Source: Microglena sp. YARC (taxonomy: Eukaryota > Chlorophyta > Chlorophyceae > Chlamydomonadales > Chlamydomonadaceae). Taken from it: a stretch of DNA of 64,000 bases. The notes under the pieces were generated by a model. That model was not told the origin of the DNA, searched no databases, and was given only the letters and a program-made list of their open reading frames with translations. This document shows positions 21,564 through 59,172 of this stretch, piece by piece. A program made the position numbers and the translations under genes. Positions within the stretch are counted from its first letter, which is position 1. Every line of letters starts with the position of its first letter. The stretch covers positions 16,118,035 through 16,182,034 of the forward strand of contig CM039466.1 of NCBI GenBank assembly GCA_022414725.1, in the 5' to 3' direction.

Positions 21564-21651
21564 GTCTACTACTGGCTAGACATCATGGCCCTTGACCAGA
21601 ATAGCGCGATTGGGAGCAAGATGTCGGAGAACCCAGATGCGGACTTGAGAG
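21564..21651 (+). CDS. LRR gene exon: VYYWLDI motif
   Basis: Acceptor GCATAG, donor GTGAGC. Encodes 29 residues plus one base (phase 0 in, phase 1 out): VYYWLDIMALDQ then a polar stretch ending DADLR. The WLDI...Q pattern matches the conserved strand of the TIR-like domain in algal and protist proteins (family knowledge, not searched). Preceding exons should carry the first strand of the domain but were not found. Confidence 0.8.
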
Positions 21652-22069: not shown

Positions 22070-25000
22070 GAGACAGAGAGAGAGACAGAGACAGAGACAG
22101 AGACAGAGGGAGAGAGGTATCCTCAGGGGTGCAACTGTTCAAGGAATCTGATGCTCACTCATGCAGCCTCTTGGGAGCATCCCCCCACTCCCACACCCAT
22201 GCCCACTGATTTATTTGTTTTCTTGGGAAGCACACCCGCACCAACCCACACCCACCAACCCACTGATTTTATATTAGCTTTAGCTAGTCTATAAGCTTTG
22301 GGTTCCCGTCCTTTCTTCCTTTTCTTTGGACGGGGGGCAGGAAGTGGGGACCCCCTTTTTTTTTCTTTCCGCAACTCAACTGAACTCAACAACTCGCAAA
22401 ATAAGGACTGAGCAACTCGGATGTCAACTAAACTCAACGACTCGCAACTCATCCCAACACAACTCAGTAACTCGCAACACAGCAAATCAACAACAGGGAA
22501 CTCAACAACTCGCAACTCGCGACTCAGTAACTTAGCAGCAACTCATCAATTCGCAAGTCAACAACAAGCAACTCAACTCGCACCTTGCAACAAGTACCTG
22601 CAGCTAGCATGCGCGCAGTCAAAATCCTAGCTGCAGGCGCTAGGATTTCGGCAGCTAGGATTCCGACACCTAGGATTCCGTACCTTCTGTCATTAACCCC
22701 TGTCACACTTATCACTCTGCCCATTCTGAACAATGAGCTATTAAAAAAAACCAGACAAAACATGGAGAATTCACTTTTATTCTGTTTCGAGCCAAGACAT
22801 CATCAAATCGCGGAGCGCAAAGACCGCGCTCAGCGCATAGGCAAGATGGAAGTACCTAGCATACGCCATTCGGCTCCCCCCGTCCCTCGCCCCCACCCCC
22901 ACCCCACCCCACCCCTTCACCCCCAGAAGCTAATCTCCTTCTCTGTACGTGCCAGCTGTATTTGTTTTCTTAGGGTTCCCCCCCCCCCCCCCCCCCCCTC
23001 CCCCTACGCCCCCTCCCCACCCCACACACACACCCGGGTTTTGCAGGTGTCATCAAGGGAGTGAAGAGTGTGCTGTTCACTCTACATTCACATTGTGCTC
23101 ACTCTTTTCACTCTTTTCACTCTTTTCACTCTTTATTGCAGGTGTCATCAAGGGAGTGAAGAGTGTGCTGTTCACTCTACATCCCCTGTTGCGACCCATG
23201 GCCACCACTCGTATCTGGTGCTTGTATGAGGCTTTGGTGGCACATCAAACAGAAGGCGTGCAGCTTCAAATAATCGTAAGTGTCCATCAGGACTCGGTGT
23301 CCATGGATTGTTTTATTACAAGAAAAGAAAGGCAGCGCACCAAGCCGGCATGAATTAAGGAAGCTGTCCAAAAGGGGTTCTCGGACAACACCTTAGGAGG
23401 GGGGGGGGAGGGGGCTAGGGAGGGCCCCACGAATTAATTAGAAATGTCCATGGATAGTTTATTAATAACAAACAAAAAAGGCCAAGCCACACGCCAAGCC
23501 GCACGCCAAGCATGAATTAAGAAAGCTGTCCAAAGGGGGTCCTCGGACAATACTTTGCTTTCCTTCCCACTCCCCCACAGTTTGATAGCAGTGTCCCAGC
23601 CAACATAGAATTTGCCGTCCAACACTATGCTTTCCTTTCCACTATTCCCTCCCCACTCCCCACTCCCCACTCTCCACACCTCACTCCTCACTCTCCACTT
23701 CCCAGTCCCCACTCCCACTCTCCACCCCCACCCCCCGCTCCCCACTCCCCACAGTTTGATAGCAGCTTTCTTTCCATTTTTCATTTCCCAGCAGGGGGGT
23801 GCAAAAAACTGCGCTTAAAGCGAAGAGGGGGTAAAAAAGTCGGCGCTCAAAAGCGCAAAAGCGCGCGCTTTGATTTACCCTGGTTCAATCATTTGAAATT
23901 TGTGTTTTCCTACAGCCACATTAGTGTTTTCCTACAGCCACATTAGTGTTTTCCTACAGCACATTAGTGTTTTCCTACAGCCACATTAGTGTTTTCCTAC
24001 AGCCACATTAGTGTTTTCCTAGAGCCACATTTGTGTTTTCCTACAGCCACATTAGTGTTTTCCTACAGCCACATTTGTGTTTTCCTACAGCCACATTTGT
24101 GTTTTCCTACAGCACATTTGTGTTTTCCTACAGCCACATTTACTTCCCACTCCCTCACAGTTTGATAGCGGCTTACCAGCCAATTGGAATTTGCCGTACA
24201 GCACTTAGCTTTCCTTTCCACTCTCCCCTCCCCACTCTCCCCTCCCTACTCCCCACAGTTTGACAGCAGCTTCCCAGCCACTGTGGCCGGGGGAACCCAC
24301 AAGGATGCTTGCAAAAAAAATGTGATTTGTAGTTCGATCATTTGTACCTGTTTTCCTCCAGCCACATTTCCTTCCCACTCCCACACGGTTTGATAGCAGC
24401 TTACCAGCCAATATAGAATTTGCCGAACAGCACTTAGCTTTCCTTTTGACTCTCCCCTCCTTACTCCCCACTCCCCACTCCCCACAGTTTGATAGCAGCT
24501 TACCAGCCAATATAGAATTTGCCGTACAACACTTAGCTTTCCTTGCCACTCTCCCCTCCTTACTCCCCACTCCCCACTCCCCACAGTTTGATAGCAGCTT
24601 CCCAGCCACTGCAGCTGGGGTAATCCACAAGGATGCTTGCAAAACAAAATGTAATTTAAAAGTTAAATAATTCCAGGATTAATTTGAAATTGTTTTCCTA
24701 CAACCACATTTCCTTCCCACTCCCCCACAGTTTGACAGCAGCTTACCAGCCACTGCGGCCGGGGGAACCCACAAGGATGCTTGCCTCTCTCTCATGGAAC
24801 GCTTCAGAACATCCTCCGTGGGTCGCTTGAATGTGTCAAAAGCTCGTGCCAGCAGCGACGATGACAGGCAGTACATTCTGAGGATGATCAAGTCAGGCAT
24901 TGGGTATGCAAAGGTCAGTAGATGGAATAGTTCTTGAATGTGTGAAAGGCACGTACACCCAGTGACGATGACAGGCAGTACATTCTGACCATGATCAAGT

Positions 25001-28000
25001 CAGGCATTGGGTATGTAAAGGTCAGTAGATGGAATTGTTTTTTGAAAGTGTCAAAGGCACGTGCACGCAGTGGCGATGATAGGCAGTTCATTCTGACAAT
25101 GATCAAATCAGGCATTGGGTATGCAAAGGTCAGTAGATGGAATTGTTCTTGAATGTGTCAAAGGCACGTGCACATAGTGATGATGACAGGCAGTCCATTT
25201 TGAGGATGATCAAGTCAGGCATTGGGTATGCAAAGGTCAGCAGATATAATTGTTTCTATTTGGGGCTGCACGTAGTTGCTTCTAGGCATGTACACCAACC
25301 CTACCCCAACCCAACCAACCCAACCCAACCCAACCCAACCCAACCCAACCAACCCAACCCAACCCAAACCCAATTCAATGACCTCATCCGCGTGCTACTG
25401 GAGGATTGCATGCTCGAGGCGTTGTTGAGACATGCGCTACAAATTGGCTAAAATGACAATAACACTGATTAACTGAATCTCAAACAATCCCACCCCAACC
25501 ACCCCACCCCACCCCAGTTCGATGACCTCATCTGCGTGCTACTGGAAGATTGCATGCTCGAGGCGCTGTTGAGACATGCACTGCACGTTGGCTAAAACGA
25601 AAATTTACTGATTAACTGGACCTCAAACAATCCCAACCCACCCCAACCTAAACCCAACCCAACCCAACCCAACCAAAGCTAACCCAACCCAACCCTACCC
25701 AAACCAAACCAAACCAAACCAACCCGACCAAACCCAACCCAACCAAAGCTAACCCAACCCAACCCAACCCAACCCAACCCAAACCAAACCAAACCAAACC
25801 AAACCAACAACCAAACCAACCCAAACCAACCCAACCCAACCCAACCCAACCCAACCCGAACCAACCCAACCCAACCCAACCCAACCCAACCCTGCCCTGC
25901 CCTGCCCTACCCTACCCTACCCTACCCATCCCAACTCAACCAACCCAACCAACCCATCCCAGTTCAATGACCTCATCCGCGTGCTACTGGAGGATTGCAT
26001 GCTTGTGGCGCTATTGAGACATGCGCTGTACATTGGCTAAAATGAAAATAACACTGATTAACTGAATCTCAAACAATCCCACCCCACCCCACTCCAGTTC
26101 AATGACCTCATCCGCGTGCTACTGGAGGATTGCATGCTTGAGGCGCTGTTGAGACGTGCACTGAACATTGGCTAAAACTAAAATAACACTGATTAACTGA
26201 ACCTCAAACAATCGCACCCCACCCCAGTTCAATGACCTCATCCGCGTGCTACTGGAGGATTGCATGCTCGAGGCGCTGTTGAGGCATGCATTGCGCATTG
26301 GAGATGCCCCGGCTGCAGAAGCTGTTGTGAGCATGGGCGGTAGCATACATTCGAGCCACTACTTCCTCACAGGGTCAGCTGGTAGAGCGGATGCAGTAGC
26401 CCCTGTCCTTGCAAGGGTGAGTCTAGACCATGGATAAGGCGAGGTGGTAGAGGGCAGCGTGCATTTCCAATTTGCAGTGTCCCATTTGCAAGTCCCAATT
26501 TGTAGTGTCCAATCTACAAGGTCCAATTTGCAATGTTCGGTTCTTCCTTGCTGGGTCAGCTGGTAGAGCGGATGCTATAGCGCCTGTCCTTGCAAGGGTG
26601 AGTCTAGACCATGGATAAGGCGAGGTGGTAGAGGGCAGCGTGCATTTCCAATTTGCAGTGTCCAATTCACAAGGTCCAATTTGCAGTGTCCAATTTGCAG
26701 TGTCCAATTTGCAAGGTCCAATCTACAAGGTCCAATTTGCAATGTTCGGTTCTTCCTTGCTGGGTCAGCTGGTGGAGCGGATGCAGTAGCACCTGTTCTT
26801 GCAAGGGTGAGTCTAGATGATGGATATATCAACATGGGGGGTAGCATCTGTGCAAGTGATTTCTTTCTCACTGGGTCAGATGGTGGAGCAGATGCAGTAG
26901 CGCCTGTCCTAGCAAGGGTGAGTCTAGACCATGGATAGGGCGAGGTGGTAGAGGGCAGCGTGCACAACCAATTTGCAGTGTCCAATTCACAAGGTCCAAT
27001 TTGCAGTGTCCAATTTGCAGTGTCCAGTTTGCAAGGTCCAATTTGCAGTGTCCAATTTGCAATGTTCGGTTCTTCATTGCTGGGTCAGCTGGTAGAGGGA
27101 ATGCAGTTGTGCCTGTCATAGAAAGGGTGCGTCTAGATGATGGATAGGTCAACATGGCAGAGGGCAGTATGCATATCCTATATAACCTGACTGTGTGTGT
27201 CATTTGCGGATCCCCCCCTTCTGGGGGGGCTGGATCCCCCAGGGTCACCCCGTTGTCGGTCCGACTGCCCCCCCCCCCCCCCCCCCTACCGAGACGAAGC
27301 CTGACACGTCAGCCAACGGTCTTGTAACTAACTGGCTTCGGTCCACTTGATTCCATTGCCAACACTCTCCGCCAATTTTTCGTTTCGCTTGCGACGCTTC
27401 CTAGGACTTGTTCCCCTATCCCCTTACATGTCATAATATGTAACAACAGTTGCATGTTAAATCTATGCATATGTGAATCCAGGACCTAGTACTGTACTCG
27501 ATAAGCACTACAACCTGACAATGTGTGCCATTCCCTTATGCCCTTACATGTCATCGCTGTCAACAGTTGCATGCTAAATCTATGAATATGTGAATCCAGG
27601 ACCTAGTACTGTACTCGATAAGCACTACAGCCTAACTGTGTACATCATTACCTTATCCCCTTCAAGGAAATAGCTAACAGCATTCGTATGACCAGTGTAC
27701 TGCAGCGGTGTGAACTCAGGGTGCAAGCTTGAAAAGTCTTGTCCGAAGCACTACAGCCTGACTGATAAGCACTACGGCCTGACTGTGTGCGTCTTTCCCG
27801 TACCCCTTCAAGGTAATAGCTAACAGCAGTTGTATGACGAGTGTCAAACTGCAGCGATGTGAGCTGAAGGTGCAAGCTGGAAAAGTCTTGTCCGAAGCAC
27901 TACAGCCTGACTGATAAGCACTACAGCCTGACTGTGTGCGTCATTCCCGTATCCCCTTTCAGGTCATCGCTGACAGCAGTTGCATGACCAGTGTCGTGCA

Positions 28001-31000
28001 AAACTGCAGCGATGTGAGCTGAAGGTGCACGCTGGAAAAGTCTTGTCCGAAGCACTACAGCCTGACTGATAAGCACTACAGCCTGACTGTGTGCGTCATT
28101 CCCGTACCCCTTTCAGGTCATCGCTGACAGCAGTTGCATGTTAAATCTATGAAATGTGAATCCAGGACCTAGTACTGTACTCGATAAGCACTACAGCCTG
28201 ACTGTGTGCATCATTCCCGTACCCCTTTCAGGTCATCGCTGACAGCAGTTGCATGACCAGTGTCAAGCTGCAGCGATGTGAACTGAAGGTGCAAGCTGGA
28301 AAAGTCTTGTCCGAAGCTTTGACTATGAATGAAACGCTGCTGGAGCTTGACCTTAGCAACAATCCGGAGGTGAGTACAGGAAGTGCTTAAGCTTGCTTAT
28401 AATTGGAAATCAATGCTACCATGCATGTTGTTACAGTCCAGGGGTAGCGAACTAGACTTGAGTCGTGTAAGTATGTAGAGTCTTGTCCGAAGCTCTGACA
28501 ATTAATGAAATACTATTGCAGCATAACCTTAGCGACAACCCGGAGGTGAGTACAGGAAGTGCTTAACCTTGCTTATAATTGGCAATCAATACTACCATGT
28601 ATGTTGCAACAGTCCAGGGGTAGCCAAATAGGCTGGAAGAGTCTTGTACGAAGCTCTAACTAAGAATGAAACACTATTGCTGCTTGACCTTAGCGATAAC
28701 ATGGAGGTGAGTACAGGAAGTGCTTGACCTTACTTATAATTGGAAATCAATGCTACCATGTTTGTTGTTATAGTCCAAGGGTAGCCAAAGAGGCCAAAGG
28801 GACCTGCCCAACCATGTATGCTGTTACAGTCCAGGGGTAGCCGAATAGGCTAGAAGAGTCTTGTATGAAGCTCTAACTATGAATGAAACACTATTGCTGC
28901 TTGACTTATCGACAATCCGGAGGTGAGTACAGGAAGTGCTTGACCTTACTTATAATTGGAAATCAATGCTACCATGTTTGTTGTTATAGTCCAAGGGTAG
29001 CCAAAGAGGCCAAAGGGACCTGCCCAACCATGTATGCTGTTACAGTCCAAGGGTAGCCAAAGAGGCCAAAGGGACCTGCCCAACCATGTTTGTTGTTATA
29101 GTCCAAGGTTAGCCAAACAGGCCAAAGGGACCTGCCCAACCATGTATGCTGTTACAGTCCAAGGGTAGCCAAAGAGGCCAAAGGGACCTGCCCAACCATG
29201 TATGCTGTTACAGTCCAAGGGTAGCCAAAGAGGCCAAAGGGACCTGCTCAACCATGTATGCTGTTATAGTCCAAGGGTAGCCAAAGAGGCCAAAGGGACC
29301 TGCCCAACCATGTATGCTATTACAGTCCAAGGGTAGCCAAAGAGGCCAAAGGGACCTGCTCAACCATGTATGCTGTTACAGTCCAAGGGTAGCCAAAGAG
29401 GCCAAAGGGACCTGCTCAACTATGTATGCTGTTACAGTCCAAGGGTAGCCAAAGAGGCCAAAGGGACCTGCCCAACCATGTATGCTGTTACAGTCCATAG
29501 GTAGCCAAAGAGGCCAAAGGGACCTGCCCAACCATGTATGCTGTTACAGTCCAAGGGTAGCCAAAGAGGCCAAAGGGACCTGCCCAACCATGTATGCTGT
29601 TACAGTCCAAGGGTAGGCAAACAGGCCAAAGGGACCTGCCCAACCATGTATGTCGTTACAGTCCAAGGGTAGCCAAACAGGCCAAAGGGACCTGCCCAAC
29701 CATGTATGCTGTTACAGTCCAAGGGTAGCCAAAGAGGCCAAAGGGACCTGCCCAACCATGTATGCTGTTACAGTCCAAGGGTAGGCAAACAGGCCAAAGG
29801 GACCTGCCCAACCATGTATGCTGTTACAGTCTAAGGGTAGCCAAACAGGCCAAAGGGACCTGCCCAACCATGTATGCTGTTACAGTCCAAGGGTAGCCAA
29901 AGAGGCCAAAGGGACCTGCCCAACCATGTATGCTGTTACAGTCCAAGGGTAGCCAAACAGGCTACAAGAGTCTTGTGATGATAACGCCTGGTGGGGGGTG
30001 GTGTTAAGAGAGCCCGTCGTACACGGGTGGGGAGCGGTCTCCTACCTCAACCGGACAAGCTACCATCGCGGTTGACAACGACCTGCAACGCCAAGAGTGA
30101 CCGAAGGGGGGGTCGAACCCCCGACTCTTCGTCCTCAAGCAATCTGGTCTACCACTACACCATTGTATATCACTGAAAGGGGCTAAGATTCTTGTAAGTA
30201 TGTAGAGTCTTGTATGGAGCTCTGACAATGAATAAAACACTATTGCAGCTTGACCTTAGCGACAACCCGGAGGTGAGTACAGGAAGTGCTCGAGCTTGCT
30301 TATAATTGGCAATCAATACCAACATATACGTTGTTACAGTTCAGGAATAGCCAAACTGGCTAAAGGGACCTGCCCAACCGTGTATGTTGTTACAGTCCTG
30401 GTGTAGCCAACTAGGTTAGAAGAGTATTGTATGTACGTACTTGAACTTGGTTACATAGCTTCAGCCAGCAATTTGGTGGCCGTCTTCGGCAGTAAAGAAA
30501 TGGTTACCAGGAAAATGTAAACTCGAACAAATCACTTTTTTCTTTTTTCTTTTTCTTTTTCTTTTTTTCTTTTTCATTTTTATGTATGTACAGTCTTGTT
30601 TGAAGCTCTGACTATGAATGAAACGCCGCTGGAGCTTGACCTTAGAGATAACTCGAGGTGAGTGCAAGAAGTACACGCCTTGCCACATCAGCTGCAGTAC
30701 AAAATGCTGCTGCAGATTCACTGTAGACATTGTAATTGTTTTTGTATTTGCCATTGCAATTGGCATTGGCATTGGGATTGGCATTATCATTCTCATTGGG
30801 TTGCAGCTCGAAGACGATTGGACGGCTGCACCCAAACACCAACCCACCAAACACCAACCCACCAACATCAAACCCAAACCCAAACCCAAACCCAAACCCA
30901 AACCCAAACCCAAACCCAAACCCAAACCCAGCAACACCATCACCAATACACCCACACCCACCCTTACCATTATCATTATCATGTTCCTTTTCATTGGGTT

Positions 31001-48327: not shown

Positions 48328-48358
<31 letters not shown>

Positions 48359-51300
48359 CAGGCAATGAAAAGCTGGGAGATGCAATTGAGAGTTTGGCTC
48401 ACTCAGTAAAACATTAGCAAAAAGGTCCCCAATATATCACTACCCCCCCCCCCCCCTCCCCCCCCGTTGCAGCAATGAAAAGCTGGGAGATGCGATTGAG
48501 AGTTTGGCGGCTGCACTGCCATGCGCGTATGACCTGCACACATTAGGACTCAGATCAATTGGACTGCAACCCGTGAGTACATCCCTTTGGATGCATTTTT
48601 ATGTAAATATATAATATTACTGTCACTGAATTACTGTTACTGTAACTCATCATTACTGATCACAATGACTGTTACTCATCATTACTCATCACAGTTACTG
48701 TTACTCATCATTACTCATCACAATTACTGTTACTCGTCATCACTCATCATTACTTATCACAATTACTGTTACTGATCATCACAATTAGTGTCACTGTCAC
48801 AATTACTATCACTCATCATCACTCATCAATACTAACCACAATTACTGTTACACATCATCACAATTACTGCCACTCATCATCACTCATCACAAAACTGTTA
48901 CTCATCATCACAATTACTGCCACTCATCATCACTCATCACAATAACTGTTATTCATCATCACAATTACTGCCACTCATTATCACTCATCACAATAACTGT
49001 TATTCATCATCACAATTACTGTTACTCATCATCACTCATCACAATTACTGTCCCCCATCATTATGCATCACAATTAAAGTCTCTCATTATCCCCCCTAAC
49101 AATTACTGTCACTCATGGTTACTCATCATTACTCATCACAATTACTGTCACTCATCATCACTCATCACAATTATTGTTACTGATCATCACTCATCATCAC
49201 TCATCATCACTCGTCACAATGACTGTCACTCATCATCACTCATCACAATTACTGTCACTCATCATCACTCATAACAATAACTGTCACTCATCATCACTCA
49301 TCACAATTATTGTTACTGATCATCACTGATCATCACTCATCATCACTCGTCACAATTACTGTCACTCATCATCACTCATCACAATTACTGTCACTCATCA
49401 TCACTCATCACAATTATTGTTACTGATCATCACTCATCATCATCATCATCATCATCACTCATCATCACTCATCACAATTACTGTCACTCTCATCACTCAT
49501 CATCACTCGTCACAATTACTGTCACTCATCATCACTCATCATCACATCATCATCACAATAACTGTCACAATACTGTCACTCATCATCACTCATCATCACT
49601 CATCACAATTACTGTCACTCATCATCACTCATCACAATAACTGTCACTCATCATCACTCATCACAATTATTGTACTGAATCATCACATCATCATCACTCA
49701 TCATCACTCGTCACAATTACTGTCACTCATCATCACTCATCACAATTATTGTTACTGATCATCACTCATCATCATCACTCATCATCACTCTCACAATTAC
49801 TGTCACTCATCATCACTCATCATAATTACTGATCATCACTCATTATCACTCTCATCATCACTCATCACAATAACTGTCACTCATCATCACTCGTCACAAT
49901 TATTGTTACTGATCATCACTCATCATCACTCATCATCACTCATCATCACTCTTCACAATTACTGTCACTCATCATCACTCATCACAATTATTGTTACTGA
50001 TCATCACTCATCATCTCTCATCATCACTCGTCACAATTACTGTCACTCATCATCACTCATCACAATTACTGTCAATCATCATCACTCATCATCACTCATC
50101 ACAATTATTGTTACTGATCATCACTCATCATCACTCATCATCACTCATCATCACTCGTCACAATTACTGTCACTCATCATCACTCATCACAATTATTGTT
50201 ACTGATCATCACTCATCATCACTCATCATCACTCGTCACAATTACTGTCACTCATCATCACTCATCACAATTACTGTCACTCATCATCACTCATCACAAT
50301 AACTGTCACTCATCATCACTCATCACAATAACTGTGACTCATCATCACTCATCACAATTATTGTTACTGATCATCACTCATCATCACTTATCATCACTCG
50401 TCACAATTACTGTCACTCATCATCACTCATCACAATAACTGTCACTCATCATCACTCATCACAATTACTGTCACTCATCATCACTCGTCACAATTACTGT
50501 CACTCATTATCTCTCATCACAATAACTGTCACTCATCATCACTCATCACAATTATTGTTACTGATCATCACTCAACATCACTCGTCACAATTACTGTCAC
50601 TCATCATCACTCATCACAATAACTGTCACTCATCATCACTCATCACAATTATTGTTACTTATCATCACTCACCATCACTCATCATCACTCGTCACAATTA
50701 CTGCTACTCATCATCACTCGTCACAATTATTGTTACTGATCATCACTCATCATCACTCATCATCACTCGTCACAATTACTGTAACTCATCATCACTCATC
50801 ACAATTACTGTCACTCATCATCACTCATCACAATAACTGTCACTCATCATCACTCATCACAATTATTGTTACTGATCATCACTGATCATCACTGATCATC
50901 ACTCGTCACAATTACTGTCACTCATCATCACTCATCACAATTACTGTCACTCATCATCACTCATCACAATTATTGTTACTGATCATCACTCATCATCACT
51001 CATCATCACTCGTCACAATTATTGTCACTCATCATCACTCATCACAATTACTGTCACTCATCATCACTCATCATCACTCATCGTCACTCGTCACAATTAC
51101 TGTCACTCATCATCACTCATCATCACTCATCATCACTCATCACAATTACTGTCACTCATCATCACTCATCACAATAACTGTCAATCATCATCACTCATCA
51201 CAATTATTGTAACTGATCATCACTCATCATCACTCAGCATCACTCGTCACAATTACTGTCACTCATCATCACTCATCACAATAACTGTCACTCATCATCA

Positions 51301-54300: not shown

Positions 54301-57300
54301 TCACTCGTCACAATTACTGTCACTCATCATCACTCATCACAATTACTGTCACTCATCATCACTCATCACAATAACTGTCACTCATCATCACTCATCACAA
54401 TTATTGTTACTGATCATCATCATCATCACTCATCATCACTCGTCACAATTACTGTCACTCATCATCACTCATCACAATTATGTTACTGATCATCACTCAT
54501 CATCACTCATCATCACTCGTCACAATTACTGTCACTCATCACTCATCACAATTACTGTCACTCATCATCACTCATCACCAATACTGTCACTCATCATCAC
54601 TCATCACAATTATTGTTACTGATCATCACTCATCATCATCATCATCACTCGTCACAATTACTGTCACTCATCATCACTCATCACAATTACTGTCACTCAT
54701 CATCACTCATCACAATTATTTTACTGATCATCACTCATCATCACTCATCATCACTCGTCACAATTACTGTCACTCATCATCACTCATCACAATTACTGTC
54801 ACTTTCATCACTGTCACTCACATCATCACATTATTGTTACTGTCACTCATCATCATCACAATTGTTACTGTCACTCATCATCACTCATCACACTGTCACT
54901 CATCACACTGTCAACTCATCATCCACTCATCACAATTATTGTTACTGATCATCACTCATCACTCATCATCACTCGTCACAATTACTGTCACTCATCATCA
55001 CTCATCACAATTATTGTTACTGATCATCACTCATTCATCACTCATCATCACTCGTCACAATTACTGTCACTCATCATCACTTCATCACTACATCATCACT
55101 CATCACAATAACTGTCACTCATCATCACTCATCACAATTATTGTTACTGATCATCACTCATCATCACTCATCATCACTCGTCACAATTACTGTCACTCAT
55201 CATCACTCATCACAATAACTGTCACTCATCATCACTCATCACAATTATTGTTACTGATCATCACTCATCATCACTCATCATCACTCGTCACAATTACTGT
55301 CTCTCATCATCACTCATCACAATTATTGTTACTGATCATCACTCATCATCATCATCATCATCACTCGTCACAATTACTGTCACTCATCATCACTCATCAC
55401 AATTATTGTTACTGATCATCACTCATCATCACTCATCATCACTCGTCACAATTACTGTCACTCATCATCACTCATCACAATTACTGATCACTCATCATCA
55501 CTCATCACAATAACTGTCACTCATCATCACTCATCACAATTATTGTTACTGATCATCACTCATCATCACTCATCATCACTCGTCACAATTACTGTCACTC
55601 ATCATCACTCATCACAATAACTGTCACTCATCATCACTCATCACATTTATTGTTACTGATCATCACTCATCATCACTCATCATCACTCATCATCACTCGT
55701 CACAATTACTGTCACTCATCATCACTCATCACAATTATTGTTACTGATCATCACTCATCATCACTCATCATCACTCGTCACAATTACTGTCACTCATCAT
55801 CACTCATCACAATTACTGTCACTCATCATCACTCATCACAATAACTGTCACTCATCATCACTCATCACAATTATTGTTACTGATCATCACTCATCATCAC
55901 TCATCATCACTCGTCACAATTACTGTCACTCATCATCACTCATCACAATTACTGTCACTCATCATCACTCATCACAATTACTGTCACTCATCATCACTCA
56001 TCACAATTATTGTTACTGATCATCACTCATCATCACTCGTCATCACTCGTCACAATTACTGTCACTCATCATCACTCATCACAATTATTGTTACTGATCA
56101 TCACTCATCATCACTCATCATCACTCGTCACAATTACTGTCACTCATCATCACTCATCACAATTACTGTCACTCATCATCACTCATCACAATAACTGTCA
56201 CTCATCATCACTCATCACAATTATTGTTACTGATCATCACTCATCATCACTCATCATCACTCGTCACAATTACTGTCACTCATCATCACTCATCACAATA
56301 ACTGTCACTCATCATCACTCATCACAATTATTGTTACTGATCATCACTCATCATCACTCATCATCACTCGTCACAATTACTGTCACTCATCATCACTCAT
56401 CACAATTACTGTCACTCATCATCACTCATCACAATTATTGTTACTGATCATCACTCATCATCACTCATCATCACTCGTCACAATTACTGTCACTCATCAT
56501 CACTCATCACAATTATTGTTACTGATCATCACTCATCATCACTCATCATCACTCGTCACAATTACTGTCACTCATCATCACTCATCACAATTACTGTCAC
56601 TCATCATCACTCATCACAATAACTGTCACTCATCATCACTCATCACAATTATTGTTACTGATCATCACTCATCATCACTCATCATCACTCGTCACAATTA
56701 CTGTCACTCATCATCACTCGTCACAATTACTGTCACTCATCATCACTCATCACAATTACTGTCACTCATCATCACTCATCATCACTCATCATCACTCATC
56801 ACAATAACTGTCACTCATCATCACTCATCACAATTATTGTTACTGATCATCACTCATCATCACTCATCATCACTCGTCACAATTACTGTCACTCATCATC
56901 ACCCGTCACAATTACTGTCACTCATCATCACTCATCACAATTACTGTCACTCATCATCACTCATCACAATTATTGTTACTGATCATCATCATCACTCATC
57001 ATCACTCATCATCACTCGTCACAATTACTGTCACTCATCATCACTCGTCACAATACCTGTTACTGATCATCACTCATCCAAAATACTGGCACTCATCATC
57101 ACTCATCATCACTCATCATCACTCATCACAATTATTGTTAGTGATCATCACTCATCATCACTCATCATCACTCGTCACAATTACTGTCACTCATCATCAC
57201 TCATCACAATTACTGGTACTGATCATCACTCGTCACAATTATTGGCACTCATCGTTACGCAGCTTGGAGTGAAGGCATTAGCCACAGCAATCACCAAATC

Positions 57301-58430
57301 TCCCAAGCTGGCTGACCTTGATCTGAGCTGCAACGCTGATGTGGGCGACAACTTCATGGCGGTCATCATTAATGCAATCCGAAACCACAAGACACTGACT
57401 AAGGTTTGGATTATTCATGCCTATGCCTTCACTATTTGTTTTGTTGTGTGGCATCGCAAATCGAGCGACTCGGTATGTGTGTGTAGGAGGAAGGGGGGGG
57501 AGGGGTTGCATACCCACCCCACCCCACCACTCCACTCCACTCCACTCCACTCCACTCCACTCCACTCCACAACACACGACAACTTCATGGCGGTCATCAT
57601 TAATTTAATCCGAAACTACAAGACACTGATTAGGGTTTGGATTCTTCATGCCTTCGTCTTCACTTTTTTTTGTGTGTGTCGCGTCGCAAATTGAGCGACT
57701 CGGTGTGTGTGGAATAGGAAGGAAGGGAGGGGGGGGGGGGGGGGGGGGGGGAGGGGGGAGGTGTTGCATACATACCACACACCACTCCACTCCACTCCAC
57801 TCAAAAAAAAAAACGACAAATTAATGGCGGTCATCATTAATGCAATCCAAAACCACAAGACACTGAGTAGGGTTTGGATTCTTCATGCCTTTGTCTTCAC
57901 AGTTTTTTTGTGTGAGACGCGTTGTAAATTGAGCGACTCGGTGTGTGTGTGTGGAGGAGGAAGGGAGCGGGGGGGGGGGGGGGGGGAGAGGGGGAGGTGT
58001 TGCATACACACTACACCACTCCACTCCACTTCACTCCTCAAAACACAACTACTTCATGGCGGTCATCATAAATTTAATCCGAAACTACAAAACACTGACT
58101 AGTGTTTGGATTCTTCATGCCTTCGTCTTCGCTGTTTTTTTGTGTGTGTCGCGTCGCAAATTGAGCGACTCGATATGTGTTTACTTGGTCGGAATCAATC
58201 CTAAACCCTAAACCCTAAACCCTCCCCAATTCCTTGCTGCCCTCCAGCTTAATCTCAGTTTTTGCTCTCTTGGGTCCTCGTGTGCCGCGGCTCTACAAGC
58301 ACTCATATCCTCCTCTTCCTCTGGGTTGAAGGAGATAGTCCTCAGTGGCTGCTCGGAGGGACTTGGAGAAAGCATGGTGCAGGAAGTTGCCAAGTGGTGC
58401 AGCCGGCAGAATCAGGCAGCGCCTTCATAG
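21564..58430 (+). CDS. TIR-like / leucine-rich repeat protein gene (multi-exon, 5' incomplete)
   Basis: Eleven exons can be joined: 21,564-21,651; 23,142-23,275; 24,731-24,913; 26,228-26,416; 28,232-28,369; 35,505-35,678; 38,271-38,475; 39,850-39,975; 48,473-48,572; 57,263-57,403; 58,248-58,430. They total 1,661 nt (about 553 residues). Phases agree at every junction except entry to 48,473 (one base short). The first three exons resemble, from memory of the family, the TIR-like domain with WLDI and WCL(Y/W)E motifs in algal and protist LRR or TPR proteins. The rest is RNI-type LRR, with several introns falling at the same point of the repeat. A sensing or scaffolding role is only inferred from domains. 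Exons before VYYWLDI are missing. Introns are filled with tandem arrays and partial exon copies. Confidence 0.8.
21665..21739. repeat. (CTGT)n microsatellite
   Basis: About eighteen CTGT units starting 13 bases after the donor of the preceding exon. From here to 21,820 nothing else is recognised. Confidence 0.97.
21821..21893 (+). repeat. Short dispersed repeat C, full-type copy in an intron
   Basis: Reads GTTACAGTCCAGGGGTA, AATAGGCTAAAGGGACTTGCC, then GGCAGGAAGGGCTAAAAAGAAA (interrupted here). Matches the copy at 60,565 (plus) and 60,233 (minus); a shortened form makes the 56-bp array at 28.8 kb. No terminal repeats or coding sequence are visible. Confidence 0.8.
22034..22109. repeat. (GA)n / (GAGACA)n microsatellite
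   Basis: A purine run of GA dinucleotides with CAGA interruptions. From 22,110 to 22,365 there is plain intron sequence with a short imperfect duplication around CCCACTGATTT and no gene. Confidence 0.95.
22370..22590. repeat. Irregular CAACTCGCAACTCA array
   Basis: Many imperfect units of CAACTCGCAACTCA with AACAA variants. The following stretch to 22,700 has three or four copies of GCAGCTAGGATTCCG. Both are intronic. From 22,700 to 22,978 nothing is recognised except C-rich sequence. Confidence 0.8.
22979..23000. repeat. Poly-C run
   Basis: About twenty C residues in a row, followed by C-rich and CA-rich sequence up to 23,040. Its length is unreliable in any assembly. Confidence 0.9.
23047..23141 (+). 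repeat. Acceptor-side partial copy of the next exon
   Basis: TTTTGCAG is followed by GTGTCATCAAGGGAGTGAAG, identical to the start of the exon at 23,142 for about 40 bases (through CTCTACAT). Then (TTTTCACTC)n leads into the true acceptor TTATTGCAG. This is the simplest case of the boundary duplication found at nearly all exons of this gene. Confidence 0.9.
23142..23275 (+). CDS. LRR gene exon: WCLYE motif
   Basis: 134 nt, phase 1 in and phase 0 out, acceptor TTGCAG, donor GTAAGT. Encodes GVIKGVKSVLF, HPLLRPMATTRIWCLYEAL and VAHQTEGVQLQII. The R-x-WC-L-x-E motif after a hydrophobic strand is the hallmark of the TIR-like domain of this family (family knowledge). The glycine codon is completed across the intron from the VYYWLDI exon. 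Confidence 0.85.
23276..24730 (+). repeat. Intron with seven acceptor-side copies of the next exon
   Basis: Copies of the exon start (TTTGA(T/C)AGCAGC) begin at 23,581, 23,755, 24,161, 24,259, 24,389, 24,488 and 24,597. All but 24,389 (ACACGG) keep a CCCCACAG-type acceptor. The copies at 24,259 and 24,597 extend about 50 bases into the exon, to AAGGATGCTTGC, and then diverge. Between 23,890 and 24,145 lies a 22-bp array of GTTTTCCTACAGCCACATTA units, which repeats another CCTACAG acceptor. The stretch 23,276-23,560 contains two copies of an intron segment (GTCCATGGAT ... TCCTCGGACAA). Poly-G around 23,400. Confidence 0.85.
24731..24913 (+). CDS. LRR gene exon: end of TIR-like region
   Basis: 183 nt, phase 0 both ends, acceptor CCCCCACAG, donor GTCAGT. 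Encodes 61 residues from FDSSLPATAAGG to IGYAK, including a conserved-looking KARASSDDDRQYILRMIKSG. In the family this block (acidic DDR or EDR, then a helix, then G-hydrophobic) follows the WCLYE strand. It is the last and only complete one in a series of partial copies. Confidence 0.85.
24914..25240 (+). repeat. Three donor-side copies of the preceding exon
   Basis: The exon end (GATGACAGGCAGT ... GGGTATGCAAAG) and its GTCAGTAG donor are repeated with a period near 107 bp. Donor-like GT starts at 25,021, 25,129 and 25,236, after the true one at 24,914. Confidence 0.9.
25241..26227 (+). repeat. (AACCC)n tracts with four acceptor-side copies of the next exon
   Basis: Exon-start copies begin at 25,374 (AG lost), 25,518, 25,963 and 26,098. 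Each has about 75 bases of exon and then reads GGC TAA, an in-frame stop, followed by a conserved linker ACTGATTAACTGAA. Pentamer AACCC arrays occupy 25,300-25,373 and 25,640-25,957, with AAACC and CCCTG variants. Confidence 0.9.
26228..26416 (+). CDS. LRR gene exon: linker helix region
   Basis: 189 nt, phase 0 both ends, acceptor CACCCCAG, donor GTGAGT. Encodes 63 residues: FNDLIRVLLEDCMLEALLRH, an alanine-rich stretch, GGSIHSSHYFLTGSAG and DAVAPVLAR. The start fits the last helix of the TIR-like family; the remainder links to the LRRs and was not recognised. Confidence 0.85.
26417..27135 (+). repeat. Four donor-side copies of the preceding exon plus TCCAATTTGCA array
   Basis: Exon-end copies (CTGGGTCAGCTGGTAGAGCG ... 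TTGCAAGG) with donors at 26,598, 26,807, 26,918 and 27,127 (the last GTGCGT). The copy at 26,830 reaches furthest back into the exon (GGGGGTAGCATC). Between them runs an array of GTCCAATTTGCA(A/G)G, about 13 bp per unit. Confidence 0.9.
27203..27412 (-). mobile_element. Dispersed repeat family B, copy 2 (inverted)
   Basis: Reading the minus strand: AACAAGTCCTA, AGCGTCGCAAGCG, GACCGTTGGCTGACGTGTCA, a poly-G run, then GGGGGATCC.GCCCCCCC and GGGGGGATCCGC. Same order as the copies at 20,046 and 47,334, opposite strand, inside an intron of the LRR gene. Confidence 0.75.
27413..28231 (+). repeat. Six acceptor-side copies of the next exon
   Basis: Exon-start copies (GTCATCGCTGACAGCAGTTG and variants) begin at about 27,430, 27,550, 27,667, 27,813, 27,963 and 28,117. 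They are separated by a repeated intron phrase, AAGCACTACAGCCTGACTGT. The copy at 28,117 runs to TTGCATG TTA AAT CTA TGA, an in-frame stop. The copies at 27,963 and 27,813 also include the middle of the exon (GATGTGAGCTGAAGGTGCA). Confidence 0.9.
28232..28369 (+). CDS. LRR gene exon: first LRRs
   Basis: 138 nt, phase 0 both ends, acceptor CCCTTTCAG, donor GTGAGT. Encodes 46 residues: VIADSSCMTSVKLQRCELKV, a helix part (GKVLSEALTMNETL) and LELDLSNNPE. The L-x-L-x-x-N-N pattern at the end is an RNI-type LRR strand, split by the intron exactly after NNPE; the next exon supplies LGDDG. Confidence 0.9.
28370..28790 (+). repeat. Donor-side copies of the preceding exon (first group)
   Basis: Copies of AAGAGTCTTGT(C/A)(C/T)GAAGC ... 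CCGGAG with donors at 28,546 and 28,707; three more occur further on at 28,923, 30,273 and 30,658. Each is followed by the same intron phrase GTGAGTACAGGAAGTGCTT and by short repeat C (GTTACAGTCCAGGGGTAG). Confidence 0.9.
28791..29965. repeat. 56-bp array derived from short repeat C
   Basis: About twenty units containing GTTACAGTCCAAGGGTAGCC, AAAGAGGCCAAAGGGACCTG and CCCAACCATGTATGCT, period 56 bp (29,161 and 29,217 for example). Units differ by a few point changes (AGAGG/ACAGG, CCCAA/CTCAA). It contains the first part of dispersed repeat C, so this is a mobile-looking repeat turned into a minisatellite. One donor-side exon copy (donor 28,923) lies in its left part. Confidence 0.95.
29977..30184 (-). 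mobile_element. tRNA-derived SINE, copy 2 (full length, with TSD)
   Basis: On the minus strand: AGCCCCTTTCAGTG start, A box TGGTGTAGTGG, B box GGGTTCGACCC, body, tail GGCGTTATCATC. Flanked by AAGAGTCTTGT (29,966-29,976) and AAGATTCTTGT (30,185-30,195), a target-site duplication with one mismatch. It interrupts the exon-end copy array. Not a functional tRNA gene: it has the full SINE body behind the head. Confidence 0.85.
30196..30806 (+). repeat. Last donor-side exon copies, repeat C fragments, pyrimidine tract
   Basis: Exon-end copies with donors at 30,273 (GTGAGT) and 30,658 (GTGAGT). Short repeat C fragments occur at about 30,338-30,425. A TTTTTC-rich tract spans 30,533-30,580. From 30,660 to 30,795 is ordinary intron with GGCATT repeats. 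Confidence 0.8.
30807..31030 (+). repeat. Two acceptor-side copies of the exon at 35,505
   Basis: GGTTGCAG then CTCGAAGACGATTGGACGGC at 30,807, and GGGTTGCAG then CTTGGAGACGATGGACGGC at 31,005. Both turn within about 30 bases into A/C repeats. An (AAACCC)n tract lies between them (30,863-30,935). Confidence 0.9.
31030..33705. repeat. 2.7-kb A/C-only 18-bp array
   Basis: The unit is AACACCAACCCACACCAA, about 145 copies, with indel-rich parts between 31.5 and 33.3 kb. The plus strand has almost no G or T, an extreme strand bias. The minus strand reads GGTGTGGGTTGGTGTTTGG, which could fold as a two-layer G-quadruplex. It grows directly out of an exon-start copy. Six-frame openness here is a composition effect. 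Confidence 0.97.
33706..34190. repeat. 90-bp tandem array
   Basis: Five to six near-identical units with CTTATGATTATCATGATTAC, CCCTAACCGAAACCCCC, ACATTCAAACCCACCAAACC and CCATACACACACCC. The period is 90 bp, so one frame is open as a 30-residue repeat; no sign of selection for protein. High identity suggests recent expansion. Confidence 0.95.
34191..35504 (+). repeat. Six further acceptor-side copies of the next exon
   Basis: Exon-start copies begin at 34,270, 34,604, 34,837, 35,039 (acceptor CTG instead of CAG), 35,219 and 35,341. The 34,604 copy extends to ACTGCGGTGTTCGAGACAGAGCAGCATAAG and there meets a TAA stop. Units share a preceding intron phrase (AATGAGTCTTACATGAAGTCC). Together with 30,807 and 31,005 this makes eight copies. 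Confidence 0.9.
34364..34563. mobile_element. hAT-type MITE with perfect 8-bp TSD
   Basis: A 200-bp element starts TAGGGATAGGCAATATGATA and ends, on the opposite strand, TAGGGAACGGTAAATCATAT. It is flanked by CACATGAG at 34,356-34,363 and 34,564-34,571. The 8-bp duplication and TAGGG termini fit hAT transposons. The inside is mostly ATATGATATCATATGATATC palindromes around a short unique core (AACTTTGGCCTGGGCC). It has no coding capacity. Neighbouring tandem units show the unfilled site. Confidence 0.9.
35505..35678 (+). CDS. LRR gene exon: LGDDG...GCNQQ
   Basis: 174 nt, phase 0 both ends, acceptor GGATGCAG, donor GTGTGA. Encodes 58 residues: LGDDGTAAIASSM, TLKRISLYNCGVGDRAALAL, then NALEHLDLGCNQQ. 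Two LRR units of RNI type with L-x-x-L-x-L strands. Joins NNPE before and VTPSG after without a break. It is the only complete member of nine acceptor-linked copies. Confidence 0.92.
35697..35885. repeat. GTGTGTTGTGTGT-type microsatellite
   Basis: Irregular (GT)n with TGCCGTGTG and TATGTG interruptions, starting about 20 bases after the donor. Confidence 0.95.
35924..36000 (+). repeat. Decayed acceptor-side copies of the exon at 38,271
   Basis: Two short units, ACCAACCCTACCCA followed by TGTGACTTCAACTGGATTG and AAGTGAAT, resemble the CCAACCCTACCCAG|GTCACTCC junction at 38,271 but have lost the AG. Confidence 0.6.
36022..36770. repeat. 34-bp tandem array
   Basis: About twenty units of GGACACTTTAAGGACACTTT and AACTTGCAAGATAC, period 34 bp (TAACTT at 36,061 and 36,095). 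It has an internal 10-12-bp sub-repeat (GGACACTTTAA). Indels increase around 36,180 and 36,580-36,720. Confidence 0.95.
36780..36954 (-). other. tRNA-like segment next to a SINE tail
   Basis: The minus strand contains GGTTCGAACCCC, a good B box, but no convincing A box at the right distance. It is either the decayed head of another SINE or unrelated. No cloverleaf was found by eye. Confidence 0.3.
36955..37072 (-). mobile_element. tRNA-derived SINE, copy 3 (5'-truncated)
   Basis: Only the body and tail are present: minus strand ... GTAGGAGACCGCTCCCAACC, ACCACGCCCCACCAGGCG, TTATCATTACC then a T run. The tRNA head is absent. Flanks TCCGATCCCTA (left) and TCCAATCCCTA (right) may be an 11-bp target-site duplication with one mismatch, as expected for a truncated retroposition. 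Confidence 0.7.
37073..38270 (+). repeat. Seven acceptor-side copies of the next exon
   Basis: Copies of GTCACTCCAAGTGGATTGTC begin at 37,078, 37,259, 37,436, 37,605, 37,793, 37,981 and 38,141, mostly preceded by CCAACCCTACCCAG. The last units are about 160-190 bp long. Most run on to GGCTTGATGTCCCTC TGA, an in-frame stop absent from the true exon. Each also carries repeated ACCACTTGTGTACAACC phrases. A (CA)n tract sits at 37,454-37,560 and a poly-C run at 37,222-37,252. Confidence 0.92.
38271..38475 (+). CDS. LRR gene exon: VTPSG...LAAMAP
   Basis: 205 nt, phase 0 in, phase 1 out, acceptor CTACCCAG, donor GTGCGT. Encodes 68 residues plus one base: VTPSGLSAMLAGLISNSTLR, HLSLSRMPASVMGSIPAV, MLMKNSHIRSLDLSSCNLGD, LAAMAP. 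Two LRR strands (LRHLSLS and IRSLDLSSCNL) are clear. Confidence 0.92.
38476..39412 (+). repeat. Three donor-side copies of the preceding exon plus TAGCCTGAAA array
   Basis: Exon-end copies (GGAC(C/G)TGTCCAGCTGTAACTT ... GCCATGGCACCAG) with donors at 38,777, 39,045 and 39,406. Between them are repeats of AAGAGGTGGGATCTAGT, CGATTCCGTAATTGGCGCTA and a 10-bp TAGCCTGAAA array (39,195-39,345). A minus-strand fragment resembling short repeat C (CAAATTGGCTAAAGGGACGT) lies at 39,071-39,100. Confidence 0.9.
39413..39849 (+). repeat. (GGTGATGGT)n tracts with two acceptor-side copies of the next exon
   Basis: The junction CCTCAGCCCTCAG|GACTGGTGATGG occurs at 39,622 and 39,735 and again, diverged, at the true exon. 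In each copy the exon start GGTGATGG dissolves into (GGTGAT)n. The repeated intron part includes CTTTTTCCTGAAGCC and TTTCTTTCCTTCCTCAG. Confidence 0.9.
39850..39975 (+). CDS. LRR gene exon: INLGNNNMGQ
   Basis: 126 nt, phase 1 at both ends, acceptor ACCCGCAG, donor GTGAGT. Encodes GLVMAQSLTEINLGNNNMGQ, KSLSTLAAYLNGNPRLTILR and LDG (first and last glycines split by introns). A textbook RNI-type LRR: L-x-x-I-x-L-x-x-N-x-M. Confidence 0.92.
39976..40305 (+). repeat. Two donor-side copies, one almost a full exon
   Basis: Copies of ACTGAAATCATCCTCGGAGA through GGCTGGATG with donors at 40,141 and 40,297. The first has a TAG and frame changes. The second is open throughout and would read TEIILGDNNLGQKSSSTLAA and onward, a good LRR, but lacks the first exon bases after the acceptor. 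Its AG (ACAAACCAG) would place it out of phase. Confidence 0.85.
40306..40570. repeat. (AAACCC)n-rich tract
   Basis: Runs of CCAAAACC, ACACAAACAC and AAACCC between the exon-end copies and the large 90-bp dimer array. No gene. Confidence 0.9.
40571..47090. repeat. 6.5-kb dimeric array (45+45 = 90 bp)
   Basis: About 70 copies of a 90-bp unit made of two related halves: GGATCCCAACAAGTTCGCAA-AATGGACTGAAATATATTTG and GGGTCCCAACAAGTTCGCAA-AAGGGACTCCAAAATAGGTG. Clean copies occur at 45.9-47.0 kb; indels increase leftward to 41-43 kb. ORFs on both strands are periodic by-products. The right end is interrupted by a SINE, after which one unit remnant (CCCAAAATAGGTGCAAGAAG) continues. Confidence 0.97.
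47095..47292 (-). mobile_element. tRNA-derived SINE, copy 4 (different tRNA head)
   Basis: The minus-strand tail (ACCACGCCCCACCAGGCATT ATCATTAC) and body match the other SINEs. The head differs, however: A-box-like TGGCTCAATAAC and B-box-like GGGTTAGAATCCC. The A-box variant suggests a different parent tRNA joined to the same body. Inserted at the right end of the 90-bp array, whose unit resumes on the far side. Confidence 0.75.
47334..47544 (+). mobile_element. Dispersed repeat family B, copy 3
   Basis: ACAAGTCCTATGCAGCGTCG, GGTGGCAACG, CGACCGTTGGCTGACGTGTC, CGGTCGGATGGACAAAGGGG and the GC-rich end GGGGGCTCCCGCCCCC, then GGGGGCTCCGCCAAAAA. The best-preserved copy for defining the ends. Confidence 0.8.
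47545..48472 (+). repeat. Acceptor-side copies of the next exon and poly-C runs
   Basis: About eight copies of (TG/GG)CAATGAAAAGC(C/T)GGGAGA, beginning near 47,586, 47,692, 47,797, 47,906, 47,986, 48,078, 48,198 and 48,365, followed by TTGAGAGTTTGGCTCACTCA. The later units have GGTGCAG|GC acceptors after long poly-C runs (48,160-48,185; 48,329-48,353; 48,443-48,465). Phrases such as AAAAAGGTCCCCAATATA resemble the 90-bp array unit. Confidence 0.88.
48473..48572 (+). CDS. LRR gene exon: NEKLGDAIESL (one base short)
   Basis: Acceptor CGTTGCAG, donor GTGAGT. In the LRR frame it reads NEKLGDAIESLAAALP, AYDLHTLGLRSIGLQP (33 codons from 48,474). The preceding exon ends in phase 1, so two bases are needed before AAT. 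Only C is present here, whereas the partial copies at 47,986, 48,198 and 48,365 have GC after their AG. A lost G next to a poly-C run, real or from sequencing, explains it. The frame after this exon is normal. Confidence 0.85.
48573..57262. repeat. 8.6-kb TCATCACTCATCACAATTACTG array
   Basis: Fills one intron. The main unit is 29 bp (CACAATTACTGTCACTCATC plus ATCACTCAT). It alternates with longer units that contain TTATTGTTACTGATCATCAC and two to three ATCATCACTC blocks, so there is a higher-order pattern. Units are tidy at 55.4-57.2 kb and 49.9-52.7 kb and indel-rich at 52.9-55.1 kb. The plus strand has very few G. The 48.6-49.4 kb part is the most diverged. Serine/histidine/leucine-rich frames are artefacts. 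Confidence 0.97.
57263..57403 (+). CDS. LRR gene exon: LGVKALATAI...LDLSCN
   Basis: 141 nt, phase 0 both ends, acceptor TTACGCAG. The donor is GTTTGG, weak but repeated in the downstream copies. Encodes 47 residues: LGVKALATAITKSPKLADLD, LSCNADVGDNFMAVIINAIR, NHKTLTK. One complete RNI-type LRR (LADLDLSCNADVGD) and the helix of the next. Confidence 0.9.
57404..58199 (+). repeat. Three donor-side copies of the preceding exon with G and CACTC runs
   Basis: Copies of ACTTCATGGCGGTCATCATT through ACACTGA(T/G/C)TA followed by GTTTGGATTCTTCATGCC, with donor-like GT at 57,635, 57,872 and 58,104. Each is followed by TTGAGCGACTCGGTGTGTGT, a poly-G tract and a (CACTC)n tract, so the whole ~230-bp block is duplicated. 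Confidence 0.9.
58200..58223. repeat. Interstitial telomere-type repeat (CCCTAAA)3
   Basis: Three and a half plant-type telomere heptamers on the plus strand, ending 24 bases before the last acceptor of the LRR gene. Short but perfect. Confidence 0.9.
58248..58430 (+). CDS. LRR gene last exon and stop
   Basis: 183 nt including TAG, acceptor CCTCCAG, phase 0. Encodes 60 residues: LNLSFCSLGSSCAAALQALI, SSSSSGLKEIVLSGC, EGLGESMVQEVAKWCSRQNQ and AAPS. It completes the strand begun by TLTK in the previous exon. The stop TAG lies in the first unit of a minisatellite (GGCAGCGCCTTCATAGGCAC) that continues downstream. Confidence 0.92.
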   Translation, partial: LNLSFCSLGSSCAAALQALISSSSSGLKEIVLSGCSEGLGESMVQEVAKWCSRQNQAAPS

Positions 58431-59172
58431 GCACTACAGGCAGCACCTTCATAGGCAGTACAGGCAGCGTCCTCATAGGCACTACAGGCTGCATCATGCA
58501 GCACCCTCATTGGCAGTACAGGCAGCGCCCTCATTTGGCATTACAGGCAACGCCCTCATAGGCACTACAGCCAGCATCAAGCAGCGTCCTAATTGGCACT
58601 ACAGGCAACGCCCTCATAGGCACTAAATCCAGCATCAAGCAGCGTCCTCATAGGCACTACAGGTATCATCAAGCAGCGTCCTCATTGGCACTACAGGCAG
58701 CGCCCTCGTAGGTACTCTAGCATAGAACCAGAATTTGTGTTACCTCTGCATATCGTAGCTTCAAGGAGAGGGGCAAAGCTCAGGTCCCTCCTTGACAGTA
58801 GCAAGACTATCATCATTGGAATACCACACCTACAAGCACCCAATGTTTATGGTCCATCAGGCAGCGCCGTCATTAGGCACTACAGGCAGCACCTTTGTAG
58901 GCACTACAAGCACCCAATGTTTGTGGTCCATCAGGCAGCGCCGTCATTAGGCACTACAGGCAGCACCTTTGTAGGCACTACAAGCACCCAATGTTTGTGA
59001 TCCATCAGGCAGCGCCGTCATAGGCACTACAGGCAGCACCTTTGTAGGCACTACAAGCACCCAATGTTTGTGGTCCATCAGGCAGCGCCGTCATTAGGCA
59101 CTACAGGCAGCACCTTTGTAGGCACTACAAGCACCCAATGTTTGTGGTCCATCAAGCAGCGCCGTCAATAGG
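58411..59172. repeat. 3'-end minisatellite CAGGCAGCGCCCTCATAGGC
   Basis: From 58,411 about twelve units of CAGGCAGCGCCCTCATAGGC plus ACTA, roughly 24 bp. From 58,840 there are five larger units (about 74-75 bp) with CACCCAATGTTTGTGGTCCA, TCAGGCAGCGCCGTCATTAG and CAGCACCTTTGTAGGC. The first unit includes the last codons and stop of the LRR gene. It is the exon-end duplication again, here at the 3' end of the gene. Confidence 0.92.

Follow-up and report, generated by a model that had tools for sequence, protein, structure and literature searches.

The LRR gene and its surroundings

The window, a stretch of 64,000 nucleotides on contig CM039466.1 of the 568-Mb assembly of the green alga Microglena sp. 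YARC, carries on its forward strand an LRR gene, for which the following model was built.

21564-58430, + strand: LRR gene, 11-exon model, one open frame of 553 aa with a TAG end at 58430
21564..21651, + strand: exon 1, the first exon of the model, without junction copies
23142..23275, + strand: exon 2
24731..24913, + strand: exon 3
26228..26416, + strand: exon 4
28232..28369, + strand: exon 5
35505..35678, + strand: exon 6
38271..38475, + strand: exon 7
39850..39975, + strand: exon 8
48472..48572, + strand: exon 9
57263..57403, + strand: exon 10
58248..58430, + strand: exon 11, including the stop codon

The model is incomplete on its 5′ side, where the beginning of the gene was not found. Pfam analysis placed LRR_6, LRR_1 and LRR_4 domains in the predicted protein, whose nearest relative (the best of 28 listed) shares 32% identity over 58% of the query. 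The intron borders are GT..AG throughout, with the exception of the exon 9 acceptor (48460-48480), at which one G is missing compared to the upstream copies and the frame is broken if AG/CAATG is used; this is probably a base error of the assembly, because a poly-C run adjoins the site.

The window is rich in repeats. Positions 1-3000 contain an array of ~85-95 bp units with dense indels and the look of unpolished long reads, the consensus of which resembles, by eye, a 28-codon LRR-like repeat. An array of 40-bp units extends over 12.5 kb (6771-19341), and two further arrays, of ~6.5 kb (40560-47090) and ~8.7 kb (48600-57260), both lie within introns of the LRR gene. Similar dispersed elements sharing a common core motif were observed at 29983, 36952, 47101 and 61081; they are SINE-like by eye, some with tRNA-like sequence, and no tRNA was called in them by ARAGORN. 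N gaps of the assembly are located at 3001-4000 and, in the 5 kb past the window, at 64001-69000. In the mitochondrial cox1 of the same assembly (C1118:47442-48770), all 14 Trp codons are TGA and none is TGG, and the nearest named proteins are those of Chlorogonium and Chlamydomonas moewusii (83%), which places the alga in Chlamydomonadales. Passages of PMC11228838 describe UGA as Trp in Limnomonas spitsbergensis, of the same order, and a 532-Mb genome in the related strain ICE-L, and passages of PMC12574857 enumerate the small number of green algae that have this reassignment.

Partial copies of exon edges and their divergence

Anchored alignment under strict settings gave 35 acceptor-side copies, each consisting of an intron end and an exon start, for exons 2-9 (1, 6, 4, 4, 8, 8, 2 and 2, respectively), and 19 donor-side copies, each consisting of an exon end and a donor, for exons 3, 4, 5, 7, 8 and 10 (3, 3, 5, 3, 2 and 3, respectively). 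A looser blastn search added ~7 acceptor-side copies (two of exon 5 and five of exon 9) and one donor-side copy (exon 4), raising the totals to ~42 and ~20, in good agreement with the first-pass annotation, which had counted ~43 copies upstream of eight exons and ~20 downstream of six.

23041..23087, + strand: one exon 2 copy, acceptor and first 41 bp, 100% identical over 47 bp
23559..24640, + strand: six exon 3 copies, acceptor and 22 or 54 bp (anchored alignment)
24933..25255, + strand: three tandem exon 3 copies with a 107 bp period, last 87-88 bp and donor (anchored alignment)
25346..26171, + strand: four exon 4 copies, acceptor and 62-74 bp (anchored alignment)
26543..27181, + strand: three exon 4 copies and a weaker fourth by blastn, last 55 bp and donor
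27411..28140, + strand: four strict (~6 looser) exon 5 copies, acceptor and 24-86 bp
28479..30672, + strand: five exon 5 copies, last 67-75 bp and GTGAGT donor (anchored alignment)
30793..35369, + strand: eight exon 6 copies, acceptor and 23-111 bp, split by a large array at 31034-33692
35935..38185, + strand: eight exon 7 copies, acceptor and 17-67 bp (anchored alignment)
38720..39411, + strand: three exon 7 copies, last 54-58 bp and donor (anchored alignment)
39531..39746, + strand: two exon 8 copies, acceptor and 12 bp (anchored alignment)
40035..40346, + strand: two exon 8 copies, last 104 bp and donor (anchored alignment)
47539..48398, + strand: two strict and ~5 diverged exon 9 copies, acceptor and 37 bp
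57577..58180, + strand: three exon 10 copies, last 53-58 bp and donor (anchored alignment)
58444..59133, + strand: copies of the CDS end, stop and 3′ flank, with eight probe matches from 58444 and blastn matches at 58544-59133

The last entry, which was missing from the first-pass annotation, reflects the same process at a boundary other than a splice site. Fourteen of the 21 splice junctions of the model are copied, or 15 of 22 exon edges with the stop edge included; repeated copying had been described correctly, although its extent falls short of the claimed ‘almost every exon boundary’. No copies were found in the probe scan at either edge of exon 1, at the acceptors of exons 10 and 11, or at the donors of exons 2, 6 and 9. 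In the probe scans a copy was accepted with at most 15 edits in 60 bases, a threshold at which none of 200 probes of first-order Markov sequence had a copy.

For each LRR exon, acceptor copies occur exclusively on its upstream side and donor copies exclusively on its downstream side, in line with the earlier view of this polarity as geometry, and no copy therefore carries both splice sites. Likewise, anchored alignment revealed no whole-exon copy with both splice sites at any LRR exon; the few full-length blastn matches, as we read them, overlap the real exon and span neighbouring partial copies. The exon portion of the copies ranges from 12 to 111 bp, and different junctions carry different units, as had been proposed. 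It also varies at one and the same junction (22 or 54 bp at exon 3, 24 or 86 bp at exon 5, and 17, 19, 45 or 67 bp at exon 7), which makes several independent duplications likely. TRF arrays with periods of 99-320 bp are found at the exon edges, and their repeats are direct and head-to-tail. An introner-like or transposon insertion carrying exon edges could be envisaged, given the dispersed SINE-like pieces in some introns (29983, 36952 and 47101). However, the copies are head-to-tail and adjoin their own exon, and, unlike a near-identical element present at many unrelated loci, all nine matches listed in a genome-wide search with exon 5, in which only the best candidates were scored, lie at the LRR locus; such an origin is scarcely credible.

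The copies are 77-100% identical to the corresponding real edges, full identity being confined to the exon 2 copy; over ~6000 sites (exons 9 and 11 left out), the differences between copies and edges amount to 606 substitutions and 125 gap columns. This divergence is rich in substitutions, and most copies are therefore not assembly duplicates. An artefact of mis-joined or unpolished long reads would be in keeping with the indel-rich look of window positions 1-3000 and parts of 40.5-47 kb, where single-base indels appear frequent, with the N gaps at 3001-4000 and just past the window, and with the probable base error at the exon 9 acceptor. It is nevertheless very unlikely, as the copies differ mainly by substitutions (~10%) and gaps in their exon parts are few (16 columns vs 2718 sites, compared to 109 vs 3303 sites in the intron parts, perhaps because the introns are of low complexity), as the differences between real exons and copies resemble the effect of selection, and as the same pattern occurs on other chromosomes.

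With exons 9 and 11 again left out, changes private to the copies are spread evenly over codon positions 1, 2 and 3 (25/867, 34/861 and 37/860, respectively; p=0.27), and their rate in the exon parts is close to that in the intron parts (43/1150 and 45/1033). In the real exons, private changes favour the third position (7/249, 5/248 and 15/249; positions 1 and 2 together, 12/497, vs position 3, p=0.02). The copies thus drift as non-coding DNA, whereas the exons are constrained, a result that fits the earlier proposal that the copies are tolerated since splicing removes them.

Among the splice sites themselves, AG is missing from 5 of the 33 acceptor copies (those of exon 9 not counted), GT was kept in all 19 donor copies and the first six intron bases were unchanged in 17 of these. 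Conservation of the donors had looked striking, with 3/150 mismatches at +1 to +8, but it was rejected as a finding: changes private to the copies number 2/114 at +1 to +6, which is below the ~4% elsewhere but not significantly so (p=0.33). The near-unchanged donor hexamers could be taken to indicate that the copies are functional, as alternative exon parts or as decoy sites regulating splicing. This is improbable in view of the missing third-position bias in the exon parts, the non-significant donor deficit, the lost AGs and the fact that none of the copies carries both splice sites. As these six bases are the same in 17 of the 19 donor copies, the spliceosome can hardly rely on the sequence of the sites alone, while pairing across the exon could direct it.

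Other genes and the intron-internal control

The pattern had been presented as an anomaly of one gene, which did not hold. In a neighbouring protein kinase gene, at the right window edge and beyond, two acceptor-side copies were seen by eye upstream of one exon, together with a donor-side copy after that same exon and another after a later exon. A PF00493 search returned 27 rows of MCM exons at nine loci, six of which (B, C, E, F, G and I) contain partial exon copies in the flanking introns, while none were found in the flanking introns of loci A, D and H. In the MCM splice models, comprising 16 introns after one poor model was dropped, 4/16 donors, 6/16 acceptors and 421/848 intron probes (50%) are copied. 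The 2.8-kb intron of locus G consists mostly of eight donor-side followed by four acceptor-side copies, and 97% of its probes are copied. At the other extreme, no copied intron probes were found in the introns of locus D (274 and 530 bp) or in two introns of locus F (1052 and 1646 bp), and only 13% are copied in locus H; this little duplication at some loci indicates that the process is uneven. An identical 24-aa stretch surrounds the same intron in loci A and H; this intron is 361 bp long in A but reaches 2130 bp in H, and neither locus shows junction copies at it. The two loci are probably paralogues of recent origin whose introns differ six-fold in size.

Kinesin genes gave a similar picture. 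Of 34 multi-hit clusters, which account for 102 of the 128 search rows (the others being single matches or not entered), eight contain, next to a full HMM match, an additional partial one over the same stretch of the profile. Two of these eight were inspected as sequence, and junction copies are present in both, in one gene at three of four exons; over the two loci 4/8 junctions and 98/178 intron probes are copied. Uniqueness to a single gene is therefore rejected, given the junction copies in kinase, MCM and kinesin genes, and the pattern is found on other chromosomes too. Partial exon copies can score above a family cut-off and may therefore mislead gene prediction in this genome.

The bias for junctions over intron-internal sequence that the first-pass annotation had anticipated was not observed in the LRR, MCM or kinesin genes. 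In the LRR gene, 15/22 exon edges are copied compared to 335/485 (69%) intron-internal 60-mer probes outside six large arrays (Fisher p=1.0); inside these arrays, 658/667 intron probes are copied. Non-array intron probes have 3.9 copies on average, compared to 2.7 for acceptors and 2.4 for the donor and stop edges. In the MCM and kinesin genes together, 14/40 junctions are copied vs 519/1026 intron probes (p=0.075), in the direction opposite to junction enrichment, so that the lack of bias in other genes, named beforehand as counting against the first proposal, is what these few families display. Some edges had been dropped before this count: those of an MCM F intron for which no good splice model was obtained (many copies at the acceptor edge, none at the donor edge), of MCM I with its single exon match (acceptor edge copied, donor edge not) and of one kinesin pair, K2 (one copy at the donor edge, none at the acceptor edge). 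Their omission favoured the reading of no enrichment. Three of these six edges are copied; with all six restored, at HMM edges rather than exact junctions, the ratio is 17/46, still under 519/1026. Splice junctions are not preferred targets of duplication in the genes tested, the control genes being three families of one genome.

A process directed specifically at splice junctions, such as R-loop- or splicing-linked recombination, would agree with the 14 of 21 copied LRR junctions and with the almost wholly junction-derived MCM G intron. It is nonetheless an unlikely explanation, because intron-internal probes are copied as often or more often in the LRR gene and in the pooled MCM and kinesin genes, although single introns reverse this order, because the restored edges leave the ratio below that of the introns, and because the boundary of stop and 3′ flank, which has no splice site, is copied as well. 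Moreover, 17-52% of events span a junction when duplications simply fall at random in short introns, as obtained in a simulation in which random tandem duplications with a median of 110 bp were applied to introns of 200-400 bp and kept if wholly intronic or crossing one junction. Once the simulated introns have reached 1-2.5 kb, the copied fraction is 0.44-0.72 for junctions and 0.66-0.81 for intron probes, frequencies similar to those of the LRR gene (0.68 of edges and 0.69 of intron probes), with the reservation that the simulation contains no deletions and that its parameters were chosen rather than fitted. The starting length of 200-400 bp is only plausible, since the uncopied MCM introns include lengths of 274 and 530 bp (D) but also of 1052 and 1646 bp (F).

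Tandem repeats are widespread in the sampled sequence. TRF detected 376 non-redundant arrays across 265 kb (254 kb without N), all arrays together covering 120 of the 265 kb, and 44 of the 141 kb that lie beyond the contig stretch of the window itself. Periods of 80-159 bp account for 84 of the 111 non-redundant arrays with a period of at least 80 bp, which is suggestive of a ceiling on the size of the duplication unit, although the figures are skewed by TRF itself and by some dozen fragments that belong to a single noisy array.

A probable route of intron growth and its relation to known systems

Taken together, the junction arrays are best explained, with a probability of roughly 0.8, as the visible outcome of widespread, repeated short tandem duplication, with introns as the sink. 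The genome would keep producing short tandem duplications with units mostly of 80-200 bp, whether by slippage, unequal exchange or Okazaki-flap misprocessing, and the ancestral introns were probably a few hundred bp long. A new duplication may land in an intron, across one junction or in an exon. In the first two cases the mRNA would remain unchanged as long as the exon-proximal sites, i.e. the last acceptor and the first donor, stay in use, and units crossing one junction would survive because splicing still uses the outer sites. Duplications in an exon or over a whole exon would change the message and be removed by selection. The introns would thereby lengthen, accumulating copies of intron end and exon start upstream and of exon end and donor downstream of each exon, and the copies would then decay neutrally.

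A selective filter against message-changing duplications is what we infer from the LRR gene, in which neither exon-internal nor whole-exon duplication was found although copies reach up to 111 bp into the exons; this absence fits the removal of mRNA-changing events. The exon-proximal choice of splice sites is suggested by the open frame of the spliced model only, and exon definition is its probable basis, because a copied junction has no partner site. How the right splice site is chosen among near-identical ones is a long-standing question, and scores of such contests are present here in a single-celled alga. The duplications also offer a concrete route to longer introns that does not involve transposons, as well as a neutral fossil record of exon edges in the same gene.

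Extended to the whole genome, the proposal would be that introns grow mainly by tandem duplications of 80-200 bp, that arrays of intact and at times identical decoy sites accompany the real ones in a large share of genes and that a unicellular alga achieves correct splicing by exon definition. We put this forward tentatively, as a generalisation that is somewhat more likely to fail than to hold. If true, the fall in unit length above ~160-200 bp would indicate an error at replication scale (Okazaki or nucleosome sized), and each copy would preserve a dated, neutral snapshot of an ancestral exon edge.

Gao and Lynch in 2009 and Hellsten et al. in 2011 reportedly described tandem duplication within genes as a source of new introns and exons. 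A case of such internal gene duplication, in the potato RdRp, is outlined in passages of PMC4974935, with tandem duplication in the gene, segments crossing an intron/exon border and an 83-bp intronic duplication that left the structure unchanged. The LRR gene resembles internal gene duplication, as presented there, in its in-gene tandem duplications that include segments over the intron/exon border, and differs from it in that no new intron or exon arises; instead, existing introns were enlarged repeatedly while the coding sequence stayed intact. In Drosophila, novel intron positions in 31 genes are attributed to sliding or tandem duplication, according to the abstract of PMC2891723. There, as here, coding sequence at splice sites underwent regional tandem duplication, but the study concerns new intron positions, and its abstract makes no mention of arrays of partial junction copies. 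Unlike the Rogers model, in which a duplicated exonic AGGT supplies both sites of a new intron, the copies described here straddle existing junctions, and the 11-exon frame is intact without a new intron.

As in intronic minisatellites, direct head-to-tail repeats lie in introns and evolve neutrally as non-coding DNA; unlike minisatellites, the units hold exon edges and intact-looking splice sites, number one to eight per junction and are mostly ~10% diverged. Exon-derived sequence repeated in introns is likewise a feature of exon duplication and mutually exclusive exons, but the LRR gene has no whole-exon or two-site copy and its copies drift neutrally. No description of gene-wide or genome-wide copying of splice junctions was found in the literature searched, from which its absence from print is not established. 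In scale, the pattern extends to the majority of junctions in the LRR gene and to part of the junctions in several other genes. Intron growth by junction-straddling duplication is thus a variant of the known internal tandem duplication, new in scale and outcome, because introns were enlarged repeatedly at many junctions of several genes while the coding sequence remained unchanged.
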